Positions 36,880 through 40,741 of a DNA stretch of 46,947 nucleotides are shown here, piece by piece. Made by a program: the position numbers and the translations under genes. The notes under the pieces were generated by a model, which had not been told where the DNA came from, ran no database searches, and worked only from the letters and a program-made list of their open reading frames with translations. Within the stretch, counting starts at the first letter, position 1, and every line of letters starts with the position of its first letter. Source of the stretch: Chloroflexota bacterium (GTDB lineage Bacteria > Chloroflexota > Anaerolineae > Anaerolineales > Villigracilaceae); NCBI GenBank assembly GCA_016866215.1, contig VGNE01000028.1, positions 1-46,947 of the forward strand, in the 5' to 3' direction.

Positions 36880-38178
36880 ATGTTCAAATACATCCTCCGA
36901 GGACTTGAAATCACATTTGCCCTTATCGTCCTCACAATGATCACGGAGTACAGCAATCCATCCCTCACGCATCCCACTGAAAAGATACGCACATATACAC
37001 GTCAGGTGGAATTCAATTACATTTCGTGGATGTCCAATGCTTTAATCATCAAACTGCGCGCGGCTTCTGTGGGCATCCCATATACACTTGACCAATCATC
37101 ACAAAAACAGATCGTAAACGAGTATTTACGCGCCACCCAATTCATTCTCGATAAAGAACAACTGCTCGCCCAAATCTACGCAGATGCCGCGCTCACAGAC
37201 AAGAACCTTGCATCCGAATCATTGCGCGGCGAGCTTGCGAAGCTATACTTCATGCAGAGTGAACTTGCGCCGCTGGCGGAAGCGGTATTACAAGAGCAGG
37301 TTAGTCAGATCCTGGCAGAGATCGAACTGACATCTGCCGGACAGCCCATGCCGAACGTATGGTATCACTCTACCCCGCTGCCAAAGGCTCTGATCGTTTC
37401 TCCACGCAGCCATATTGAACAAATTGCAAATATCTCAGTTAACACAGACCTGAAGGTTGATGAACAAGCTGCGCTTGAAAACAATGTAGATCACGGACTC
37501 AATACATCCTCATTGGTTGTGAACATCGGAGGTGTTGGGGTTTACCCAACCATGGTCATGCGCACAACAAACTTAAACTGGATGGTCAACACCATCGCTC
37601 ATGAATGGATCCACAATTATCTGACACTGCGTCCTCTTGGATTTTTATATGACAATACGCCTGAACTTCGCACGATGAATGAGACCACAGCCTCCATCGC
37701 CGGAGATGAAATCGGGGCGCTCGTTGTTGAGCGGTTTTATCCTGAATTGATATCCGCTTCGCCCTTGACACTTCGACCTCGCTCAGCCCAGACCTTGAGC
37801 CTGGTCTCTGCTCCGATTGACCACCCCGAACCTGGAGATTTTTTGCGCCCCCCCTTTGATTTCCGCGCAGAGATGCACGAAACACGTGTTTTCGCAGATG
37901 CTCTGCTTTCCGAAGGAAAGATCGAAGAAGCGGAAGCGTACATGGAGGCGCGCCGCCTGATATTCTTGAAAAACGGATATTTGCTGAGGAAACTCAACCA
38001 GGCTTATTTTGCATTTCATGGAGCGTATGCCGATCTGCCCGGCGGCGCAGCGGGCCAAGACCCCGTCGGTCCCGCTGTGCGAGCATTACGCGCCCAGAGC
38101 GAATCACTCGCAGACTTCGTCAACACCATGTCGTGGATGTGGAAATATGAACAATTACAGAAAGTGGTAAACCAATAG
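36880..38178 (+). CDS. Membrane-anchored putative zinc metallopeptidase (HEWIH), unknown family
   Basis: 432 residues. One N-terminal helix (9-24, LEITFALIVLTMITEY) would anchor the protein with the rest outside. A helical region (about 70-150) is followed by the HExxH motif NTIAHEWIHNYLTL (H241, E242, H245), and downstream MNETTASIAGDEIGALVVERFYP offers E268 and E277 as a third zinc ligand or gluzincin-type helix. I do not recognise the family. Protease activity is inferred from the motif. It heads an envelope cluster with a foldase lipoprotein and a PrsW-like protease. Confidence 0.7.
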   Translation: MFKYILRGLEITFALIVLTMITEYSNPSLTHPTEKIRTYTRQVEFNYISWMSNALIIKLRAASVGIPYTLDQSSQKQIVNEYLRATQFILDKEQLLAQIYADAALTDKNLASESLRGELAKLYFMQSELAPLAEAVLQEQVSQILAEIELTSAGQPMPNVWYHSTPLPKALIVSPRSHIEQIANISVNTDLKVDEQAALENNVDHGLNTSSLVVNIGGVGVYPTMVMRTTNLNWMVNTIAHEWIHNYLTLRPLGFLYDNTPELRTMNETTASIAGDEIGALVVERFYPELISASPLTLRPRSAQTLSLVSAPIDHPEPGDFLRPPFDFRAEMHETRVFADALLSEGKIEEAEAYMEARRLIFLKNGYLLRKLNQAYFAFHGAYADLPGGAAGQDPVGPAVRALRAQSESLADFVNTMSWMWKYEQLQKVVNQ

Positions 38179-38182
38179 CAGA

Positions 38183-38233
38183 TGTCATTGCGAGGAGGAT
38201 GCAATTCCCGACGAGGCAATCTCCGCGCAATAA
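38183..38233. repeat. Dispersed GTCATTGCGAG repeat, third copy
   Basis: GTCATTGCGAGGAGGATGCA...GACGAGGCAATCTCC lies between the HEWIH gene and the foldase gene. It shares GTCATTGCGAG with the element after purA-end copy C. Confidence 0.65.
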
Positions 38234-38249
38234 AAGAGACACACAAAAA

Positions 38250-39497
38250 ATGAAACAAATACTATTGATATTGTTATTATCCGTTGCAGGAATCTTTATT
38301 CTTAGCGGTTGCGCAGGCAAAACAGAAACGCCACTCTTGCCTGCCCTGATCGTTGAAAACCCGATCATTATGGACACACCGACTTCCGTAATCGGATGCT
38401 CGGTAAAATTCGCCGAGGTGGAACCAACCTCAGCACCCAGTTCTGCCTCCCTCATTCCTCCCGTCAGCGCGGCGGACTTTTCGTTGGGGACTGCTGACGC
38501 GCCAGTGACCCTTGTTGAGTACTGCGAGTTTCAATCACAAGGTTGCGCGAGCATGGCAAATGTTGTCATGGAATTGTTGAAGAATCATGCCAGCCTGCGC
38601 TTCGTTTTCCGCCCATTGCCATTGATCGGCATCCTCAATAAATCTGACAAAGCAGTTCTTGCAGCGCTTGCGGCAGATGAGCAAGGTCAGTTTTGGGTGA
38701 TGTATGACATATTGTTCACAAAATATAATGAGTGGGCGGATTTAAGTCCAAGCGAATTTAATGCCTGGGTTGTGCGAAATGCTACCAGTGCAGGCATGGA
38801 TGGAGACCAACTCACTGCGGCGATAAAGTCTGATAAAACGACGACCAGAATGATGTCCATGTATGAAGCGGCCAAGCAATTAAGTATCCCGGCAATTCCA
38901 TTGGTTTTTATCAATGGTAAGCTCCAGCAATCCTACGTGCTTGATTATCAAAACATGAGCGACACGATCGGCTTGATCACGTTGGGACAGAAACAATTTA
39001 CCGAGTGTCCGCCATTTGATATTGACCCTTTGAAACAATATATTGCCACGATCAAAACGGACAAGGGGGATATCGTGATCGGATTATTTCCGGACAAGGC
39101 GCCGTTGGCCGTAAATTCTTTTGTGTTTCTTGCGCGGGCAGGTTGGTTTGACGGCGTGACATTTCATCGTGTCATCCCCGGCTTTGCCGCGCAGGCCGGC
39201 GACCCAAGCGGCACAGGCCGAGGCAATCCCGGTTATTTATTCAACAATGAGATTAGTGATTTGAAATTTGACAAACCCGGACTGATAGGCATGATAAACT
39301 CAGGGCCGGACACAAATGGCAGTCAGTTCTTTGTCACATTCGCGCCGGCTCCCCAACTGGATGGCGGCTACACCATCTTTGGGCAGGTATTAAAGGGATT
39401 GGATGTAGCCGAGCAATTGACGCCGCGCGACCCAGACCAGGTCCCGTTACTGCCGCCGGGCGATCAGATCATCAGAGTAACGATCGAAGAAAAATAA
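38250..39497 (+). CDS. Thioredoxin-fold/cyclophilin fusion lipoprotein
   Basis: 415 residues from the ATG at 38250; the longer frame begins inside repeat DNA. Lipoprotein signal LLLSVAGIFILSGC (C21), then a DsbA/Thioredoxin_4 domain (about 76-255: ADAPVTLVEYCEFQSQGCAS, IPAIPLVFINGK with cis-Pro), then a cyclophilin-type peptidyl-prolyl isomerase (about 268-410: GVTFHRVIPGFAAQAGDPSGTG, NGSQFFVTFAPAPQLDGGYTIFG). In the first domain the CxxC is S96-Q-G-C99, so the nucleophilic Cys is missing, although C92 lies nearby. It is probably an extracytoplasmic folding factor whose redox role is altered or lost. Confidence 0.9.
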   Translation: MKQILLILLLSVAGIFILSGCAGKTETPLLPALIVENPIIMDTPTSVIGCSVKFAEVEPTSAPSSASLIPPVSAADFSLGTADAPVTLVEYCEFQSQGCASMANVVMELLKNHASLRFVFRPLPLIGILNKSDKAVLAALAADEQGQFWVMYDILFTKYNEWADLSPSEFNAWVVRNATSAGMDGDQLTAAIKSDKTTTRMMSMYEAAKQLSIPAIPLVFINGKLQQSYVLDYQNMSDTIGLITLGQKQFTECPPFDIDPLKQYIATIKTDKGDIVIGLFPDKAPLAVNSFVFLARAGWFDGVTFHRVIPGFAAQAGDPSGTGRGNPGYLFNNEISDLKFDKPGLIGMINSGPDTNGSQFFVTFAPAPQLDGGYTIFGQVLKGLDVAEQLTPRDPDQVPLLPPGDQIIRVTIEEK

Positions 39498-40741
39498 TGC
39501 AAACCAATAAGACTCACTGGGCTTCCATCCTGGCATTGGTCGTATTTTGTTTTAGCACATTGTCTCTGCTATTGATCGCATTCATTTTGGGGATAAGTTC
39601 CTTATTCAGTCTCTTTTCAGAGGGTGGCGACGCCGCTGCAAAAATGATCGGCGCATTTGCCTTGGGTTTTGAATCACTGGTTTTACTCGCATGTTCATGG
39701 TTTGCGTTTCAAAAAACAATGCGGCGGGAGCAGGCTGACCTGCCATTCGATTTCCCCTTTGTCAGTTGGCAAATTTTCGCAGTCATCGGAGTTGTGATTA
39801 TTTCTGTGACGCTCGGTAGCATCGTGATAGCCACAGAGATCACCTGGCTGGGATGGTTCGCGCTCCCTGTATTAACTTTGCTCGTCATCTTACCGCCCAT
39901 TTGGATACTTTTTGGGCTCGGCACAAGTGGTCTCGAGATCGGTGCGCGCTGGCGCTTTTTTGCAATACTTGGCCTGAGTATGACCGTGGCGCCTGTACTC
40001 ATAGTCGCTCTCGAAATCATGCTGGTGCTGGGAATCGTGGTTGGCGCGGCAATTCTGATCGGGATCACACAACCTGAATTGCTTCAACAAATATCCGATC
40101 TTATTAACCTAATCGAATTCGAAACAGATCAGCAATTGATTCTGAATTTGCTCGCGCCTTACGTTAGCAACCCGGTCACCATTGCCGCCGGCATTGGGTA
40201 TATTGCCATCATCGTGCCATTAATAGAAGAGCTATTGAAACCACTGGCGGTTTTGTTCTTTGCGAAGAAGATTGAATCTCCGGCACAGGGATTTGCGTTG
40301 GGCATGTTAAGCGGCGCGGGCTTTGCCTTGGTTGAAAGCCTGAACGCAAGCGCAGGCAGTGCGATCAACTGGCCTGTTGTCGTTAGCGTACGCGCCGGCA
40401 CAAGTCTTTTGCATATGACCGCCTCGGGGCTGGTTGGCTGGGGCACCGTCTCAGCCTTTCATGAAAAACGGGTTGGACGGTTCTTTGCCGCATATTTTGC
40501 AGCTGTCTTAATTCACGGCTTGTGGAATGCCTGCGCCGCTGGAGCAGGTCTCTCAGCCATCGGCGAATCCATTGGGAAACCCGAATGGCTGTCCAATTTT
40601 GCCCCCGCCTTGTTATCCGGATTGCTCGTTCTTGGCATCGGGATGTTCGCTGTCCTGCTCCGATCCAATCGACAACTGAGAAGCGCGCCTATCGTCCTCT
40701 CAACTAACAAACAGGATAGTTCAGACCTCCCTGGTGAATAA
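39497..40741 (+). CDS. PrsW-family intramembrane metalloprotease
   Basis: 414 residues, about ten hydrophobic segments. The PrsW motifs are in order: VPLIEELLKPLAVLFFA (EExxK, about 244-260), GMLSGAGFALVESLN, AGTSLLHMTASGLVGWG (His) and FAAVLIHGLWN (His). The family cuts membrane-bound substrates such as anti-sigma factors. Its start shares one base with the stop of the foldase gene, so both are cotranslated. C-terminal tail is Ser/Arg-rich and cytoplasmic. No sigma/anti-sigma pair is in the window. Confidence 0.9.
   Translation: MQTNKTHWASILALVVFCFSTLSLLLIAFILGISSLFSLFSEGGDAAAKMIGAFALGFESLVLLACSWFAFQKTMRREQADLPFDFPFVSWQIFAVIGVVIISVTLGSIVIATEITWLGWFALPVLTLLVILPPIWILFGLGTSGLEIGARWRFFAILGLSMTVAPVLIVALEIMLVLGIVVGAAILIGITQPELLQQISDLINLIEFETDQQLILNLLAPYVSNPVTIAAGIGYIAIIVPLIEELLKPLAVLFFAKKIESPAQGFALGMLSGAGFALVESLNASAGSAINWPVVVSVRAGTSLLHMTASGLVGWGTVSAFHEKRVGRFFAAYFAAVLIHGLWNACAAGAGLSAIGESIGKPEWLSNFAPALLSGLLVLGIGMFAVLLRSNRQLRSAPIVLSTNKQDSSDLPGE

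Follow-up and report, generated by a model that had tools for sequence, protein, structure and literature searches.

Introduction

The closest described relatives of the protein considered here are Thioredoxin_4-type DsbA-like proteins (BdbD and 3gyk; PF13462/PF01323), which share with it the common fold, the cis-Pro position and the second active-site Cys. The protein encoded in the window, by which we mean the whole 46,947-nucleotide stretch of DNA that was analysed, differs from this type in having Ser for the first Cys, a CX6C arrangement with a Cys where the first strand ends, and a cyclophilin domain. Another related group is NF041057, the Rcas_1661 family of thioredoxin-like (seleno)lipoproteins, whose name implies a lipoprotein carrying a thioredoxin-like domain that can contain selenocysteine (Sec). 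The NF041057 profile covers 247 positions without a cyclophilin, and the fusion scores 63.8 bits against it, below the curated cut-off of 190. Among 30 loci of the order with NF041057-type matches, the motif was located in 25, each with CxxC or UxxC, and no motif was found in the other five.

An atlas of thioredoxin folds sorts active sites into CxxC, Cxxc, cxxC and CxxxC, with 22% of sequences lacking these motifs or too unusual to assign (PMC2757866). That scheme has no CX6C site extending back into the first strand. The sole dithiol motif of shifted spacing listed there is the CxxxC of SCO1-type proteins, in which the shift of the N-terminal Cys is confined to the loop preceding the helix, whereas in the fusion the Cys lies four residues upstream, at the strand end, and six residues separate C92 from C99, compared with three in CxxxC. 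Peroxiredoxins and GST kappa have Ser or Thr at the first CxxC position, as does the fusion, and the atlas passages on these proteins mention no additional Cys at that strand site (PMC2757866). DsbA-like selenoproteins as such are already known (PMC1794560; also NF041057, by its name). In the open-licence PMC literature, at the level of titles and the beginnings of abstracts, we found no report of a CX6C DsbA, of Rcas_1661, of a DsbA-cyclophilin selenoprotein, or of a Cys relocated from position 96 to 92.

Here we describe a family of DsbA-cyclophilin fusions of Anaerolineales bacteria in which Sec-xx-C, CxxC, CX6C and Cys-less sites, together with one form retaining C99 alone, occur side by side. 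We tentatively propose, as a real possibility, that in this thioredoxin-fold family the attacking Cys or Sec has moved repeatedly and independently from the start of the helix to the end of the first strand, giving a working CX6C dithiol site in a prolyl isomerase fusion. If true, CX6C would be a class of motif that the published scheme lacks, and it would belong to an enzyme with prolyl isomerase activity as well. The natural family makes active-site residue relocation and selenocysteine loss testable, and the DsbA-cyclophilin fusion with Sec is a probable additional form of selenoprotein, whose gene is expected to be cut at the UGA by standard gene calling.

Results and discussion

Domain organisation of the fusion protein

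The ATG at 38250 opens an ORF (38250-39497) with the lipoprotein signal MKQILLILLLSVAGIFILSGC; an in-frame ATG is also present at 38199. The product is a 415-aa lipoprotein in which Pfam identifies a DsbA-like domain and a C-terminal cyclophilin. Its best named matches are Chloroflexi/Anaerolineales records, and the host genome is 3.74 Mb. The features of the protein are as follows.

38250..38312, + strand: signal peptide and lipobox (LSGC), residues 1-21 (sequence; helix 2-18 in the AlphaFold2 model)
38475..38987, + strand: DsbA-like (thioredoxin-fold) domain, residues 76-246 (PF13462; AlphaFold2; 3gyk_A)
38898..38900, + strand: Pro217, predicted cis-Pro position of the thioredoxin fold (Pro in 187/187 homologues)
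39039..39491, + strand: cyclophilin-type prolyl isomerase domain, residues 264-414 (PF00160; 2a2n_C, Z 21.6)

Pfam searches matched PF13462 (Thioredoxin_4; E 3.4e-16, 60.3 bits, cut-off 23.2) at residues 76-226, PF01323 (DSBA; 7.4e-8, 32.8 bits, cut-off 25.6), and PF00160 (cyclophilin; 2.1e-40, 139 bits, cut-off 21.7) at residues 267-397. An AlphaFold2 model built from 35 aligned sequences had a mean pLDDT of 85.9, with both domains mostly confident: from residue 71 onwards the ten-residue blocks are mostly at pLDDT 85-98, and the linker at about 25-65 is of low confidence. In structure comparisons, residues 65-247 resembled the DsbA-like 3gyk_A (Z 19.6, rmsd 2.8, 173 aligned) and residues 255-415 resembled cyclophilins, 2a2n_C being the best. 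A sequence search with the DsbA part likewise retrieved 3gyk (1.3e-7), with BdbD and other DsbA entries matching weakly. The thioredoxin fold with helical insertion and the Pfam scores above cut-off are those of a DsbA-type protein, as is Pro217, which by sequence occupies the cis-Pro position ahead of strand 3. Where helix 1 begins, S96-Q-G-C99 stands in place of CxxC or UxxC.

These results uphold the sequence-only reading in its description of a DsbA-like domain fused to a prolyl isomerase in one product, with SQGC in place of CxxC and a further Cys, C92, four residues before S96; its residue numbers (S96, C99, C92) are exact in the numbering from 38250. Cys21 of the lipobox would be the lipid anchor, and a lipobox-like motif occurs within the first 60 residues in 134 of the 187 homologues, a set that includes sequences truncated at the start. 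The cyclophilin domain, as judged from its sequence, retains most of the main catalytic residues of the family, which we take to be R307, F312, Q315, F361 and L370, and differs from CypA at four positions, where A313, I349, Q369 and Y374 presumably stand for M61, A101, W121 and H126.

Active-site states among homologues

The motif in the window's protein is V-E-Y-C92-E-F-Q-S96-Q-G-C99, with codons TGC at 38523 (C92), TCA at 38535 (S96) and TGC at 38544 (C99). The AlphaFold2 model puts C92 at the end of strand 86-92 and has C99 within the opening turn of helix 97-112. The three positions are as follows.

38523..38525, + strand: Cys92, putative relocated redox/disulfide Cys, last residue of strand 86-92 in the AlphaFold2 model (58/187 homologues)
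38535..38537, + strand: Ser96 (TCA), at which relatives have Cys (TGY) or UGA (Sec) (77 Cys, 39 UGA, 71 other)
38544..38546, + strand: Cys99, second active-site Cys, first turn of helix 97-112 in the AlphaFold2 model (175/187 homologues)

The fusion is common in the order, with at least 193 of 251 genomes matching at E ≤ 1e-65. An earlier, smaller set of homologues (177 extracted, 148 distinct) was later enlarged by 39 sequences, so that 220 extracted sequences gave 187 distinct fusions once exact duplicates over the last 330 residues had been dropped. Rows were required to have tblastn cover from query residue 85 or earlier to 300 or later, and were drawn from among the matches listed, so weaker members lie outside the set.

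Position 96 is Cys in 77 sequences, an in-frame UGA in 39 and neither in 71. All of the Cys and UGA rows also have C99 (C96+C99 in 77, U96+C99 in 39). C92 and C99 occur together without Cys or Sec at 96 in 58 of the 187, where residue 96 is Ser (36), Ala (16), Thr (4), Glu (1) or Arg (1). Twelve sequences lack every active-site Cys, and one (L298) has C99 alone; these 13 rows make up the "none" label in the hairpin, residue and neighbour counts. C92 was never found together with Cys or Sec at 96 (0/187). Elsewhere in the DsbA domain (76-246 minus 92, 96 and 99) there is one Cys in 31,205 residues, and in its insertions none in 462 residues, so C92 is not a background or stray Cys. Since it occurs only where Cys/Sec96 is absent, the first redox residue appears to have moved, turning CxxC/UxxC into CX6C, rather than simply to have been lost. 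The sequence-only reading had spotted C92 as a nearby Cys, and missed both its replacement of C96 and the UGA at position 96 in relatives.

That reading had also allowed for a local mutation or sequencing error, should all homologues turn out to retain CxxC. An error of this kind was rejected: the C92/non-Cys96/C99 state is found in the 58 sequences above and in 38 of 38 own-genus rows entering the alignment, which come from separate genomes (the window's own included) at identities down to 55%.

Outside the window's genus, its family (f1) contributes nine Cys96 rows and nine Cys-less rows. A clade of f1 without active-site Cys (L174, L176, L180, L181 and L184) has a DNRSA-like motif and keeps the domain and P217. 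In L283 (genome G038), which has no active-site Cys, the domain's only other Cys is at position 223, just past the cis-Pro strand. Cyclophilin positions 312, 349 and 370 are mostly altered too in the 13 "none" rows. One same-genus fusion (L191, G016), kept outside the counts, is split between frames and has one in-frame TGA in its first piece. A class-wide CX6C pattern search matched 12 of 396 genomes; the odd one (L111, G114), outside the family, was taken as chance, with no ORF of at least 120 aa covering the match.

A second pair of Cys residues lies outside the DsbA domain.

38397..38399, + strand: Cys50 (linker), likely partner of Cys253 (co-occurrence)
39006..39008, + strand: Cys253 (between domains), likely structural partner of Cys50 (co-occurrence)

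Both are present in 163 of 187 sequences, and none has just one of them where both columns are filled; nine sequences have C253 and a gap at 50. Given this co-occurrence, a C50-C253 bond probably fastens the linker at the junction of the domains.

Probable selenocysteine in relatives

All 39 UGA genes contain exactly one in-frame UGA, at position 96. A hairpin with a 7-bp stem and a six-base loop begins 19 bases downstream of the U of this codon, the loop being CGTGTT, CGTGAT or CGTGCT in 34 of the 36 UGA genes of the earlier set. Stem pairs covary, for example TA/CG at one pair and GC/TA/AT at another. At least six of the seven stem pairs form in 35/39 UGA genes, 3/77 Cys96 genes, 1/58 C92 genes and 0/13 others, and in a control with the stem start shifted by -6 to +7 bases no fully paired case was obtained. 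Folding energy alone separates the Sec genes weakly (mean z -0.87, versus -0.34 and -0.57 in the others); the hairpin at its fixed position does distinguish them. On the strength of this conserved SECIS-like hairpin 3' of the UGA, position 96 in these genes very probably encodes selenocysteine.

Among 61 genomes (the window's own and 60 relatives), SelB was above its curated cut-off in 49 and tRNA-Sec above its gathering score in 50. The window's own genome has both, though its fusion is without Sec, so loss of those two parts did not force the move to C92. In three of the 61 genomes a tRNA-Sec gene lies near the fusion, at about 960 bases in G059 (L258, 3488-3582), 170 in G040 (L259, 2751-2846) and 280 in G053 (L260, 767-862). 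The adjoining fusions have Cys96 in G059 and G040 and are Cys-less in G053; tRNA-Sec genes near non-Sec fusions are possibly a relic of Sec use. Another genome (G605) has two adjacent fusion genes at one locus (L229), one with Cys96 and one with Sec96.

Number of origins of Cys92

A careful tree was built from 93 rows with the active-site columns 89-101 excluded; rows were thinned by identity, those with fewer than 300 filled positions were dropped, and nine were forced in. On this tree the C92 label needs four changes, four being forced by the starred branches, and none of 200 bootstrap trees needs only one, in a bootstrap that was not fully settled. A quick tree of the same rows places the four origins in f1 (the window's family), f14, f13 (L289) and f5 (L300). 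Holding all 17 C92 rows as one clade was 118 log-likelihood units worse, and a single origin of all C92 was rejected (p-AU 0.00025) once L289 and L300 had joined the set. Holding f1 and f14 together cost 24.5 units (p 0.097), with p 0.08 in a 66-row set, and a single origin of these two largest C92 clades was not rejected. Before the addition of L289 and L300, a careful 102-row tree required two changes, with 0 of 200 bootstrap trees needing one; a quick 133-row tree also suggested two origins, yet there a tree constrained to one clade beat the unconstrained search by 18 units (p 0.70). Taken together, C92 appears to have arisen more than once, with four origins as the best estimate.

On the same 93-row tree the Cys96 label must change 22 times and the Sec label 19 times, so exchanges between Sec and Cys are frequent. 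In the window's clade the Ser96 codon is TCN in 35 of 35 cases, one base from TGN. An independent-pairs sign test gave 0 pairs in the same direction and on average 2.4 in the opposite direction, of 8 pairs, too few for significance.

Proposed mechanism and alternative explanations

Given the sequence states observed, which exclude one another, together with the hairpin and the tree, we lean, with somewhat more confidence than doubt, towards a reversible C92-C99 redox disulfide in a membrane-anchored DsbA-cyclophilin foldase. Signal and lipobox would place this foldase, lipid-anchored and extracytoplasmic, on the outer face of the membrane. Most relatives rely on CxxC or Sec-xx-C in the DsbA-like module; in this lineage the N-terminal redox partner would have moved four residues upstream, from 96 to 92, to the end of the first strand, so that C92-X6-C99 became the new active pair and the old site 96 was free for Ser, Ala or Thr. 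The predicted C92-C99 bond, lying above the cis-Pro loop, would be reactive, opening and closing in exchange with the thiols of presumed clients, and the cyclophilin domain would isomerise prolines of the same clients.

A buried structural disulfide between C92 and C99, in a domain that performs no thiol exchange and serves the cyclophilin by holding or binding clients, seems to us somewhat unlikely; it would fit the possible trade of redox chemistry for chaperone work. It draws on changes in the 48 C92 rows of f1, where H122 is replaced by Pro in 46, P97 is kept in only 6, E140 is mostly Leu, Phe, Ile or Val, H129 mostly Leu, Met, Ala or Phe, and W77 commonly Phe; the residue before the cis-Pro, mostly Thr in the Cys/Sec96 type, is mostly Val. 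Loss of the polar residues H122, H129 and E140, which Cys/Sec96 relatives commonly have, and of P97 would fit a site without redox work. The DsbA part has also evolved faster relative to the cyclophilin in this clade, with a rate ratio of 1.73 (f14 C92, 1.61; Cys96 and Cys-less, 1.52 each; Sec, 1.38; from pairs with a cyclophilin distance of 0.25-0.45), and the 12 relatives without active-site Cys keep the domain. Since these 12 still have Pro217, that residue by itself is no argument for activity. Against a purely structural role, the f14 C92 rows keep E140 in 8/8 and H129 in 6/8, and the f13 case (L289) keeps both H122 and E140; in the f5 case (L300) residue 140 is Leu and residue 122 is Gln. 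The repeated replacement of exactly the redox partner, in a domain where other Cys residues are scarce, also suggests that selection favoured a reactive pair. In the window's own clade the change may have gone further than in the others, towards a structural disulfide.

Two further explanations fare worse than the reversible pair. That C99 alone is active, in a peroxiredoxin-like SxxC or TxxC site with C92 incidental or merely resolving, is improbable, even though cxxC sites with a C-terminal Cys nucleophile and Thr or Ser first are described (PMC2757866) and 40 of the 58 C92 rows have Ser or Thr at 96. The other 18 have Ala, Glu or Arg there; all 58 C92 sequences have C99, which is unpartnered in 1 of 187, and this also speaks against the single-Cys reductase entertained in the sequence-only reading. 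No peroxiredoxin Pfam family matched the fusion at E ≤ 0.001, nor the DsbA domain alone among the matches listed to E 5. Decay or artefact, meaning a pseudogene-like DsbA domain or a sequencing error, is the least credible and extremely improbable: the 12 Cys-less relatives could be read that way, but the open frames are conserved, as are C92, C99 and P217, and the own-genus rows agree throughout. In the f1 C92 clade, R121, W162 and P217 are invariant beside C92 and C99, which again speaks against decay.

Genomic neighbourhood

The fusion gene is flanked by two genes on the same strand.

36880..38178, + strand: HExxH (HEWIH) protein with an N-terminal hydrophobic stretch (sequence)
39497..40741, + strand: PrsW-type intramembrane protease (PF13367, 3.1e-14)

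A Pfam search of the upstream protein listed no match, even at E 5, and from its HEWIH motif it is a candidate unnamed metalloprotease. There is a one-base overlap between the stop of the fusion and the start of the PrsW gene. Among loci whose sequence extends 1 kb or more on the relevant side, the upstream HExxH protein adjoins 39/39 C92, 4/6 Sec and 9/18 Cys96 loci, and the downstream PrsW-type protease 31/38 C92, 1/6 Sec and 19/20 Cys96 loci. The HExxH protein, the fusion and PrsW together look like an envelope protein-quality unit. Elsewhere, the window's own genome encodes a VKOR homologue (98.3 bits), a possible oxidant, together with no fewer than three further DsbA-like proteins whose sites are normal (CPYC or CPFC), and these proteins may therefore take care of ordinary oxidation.
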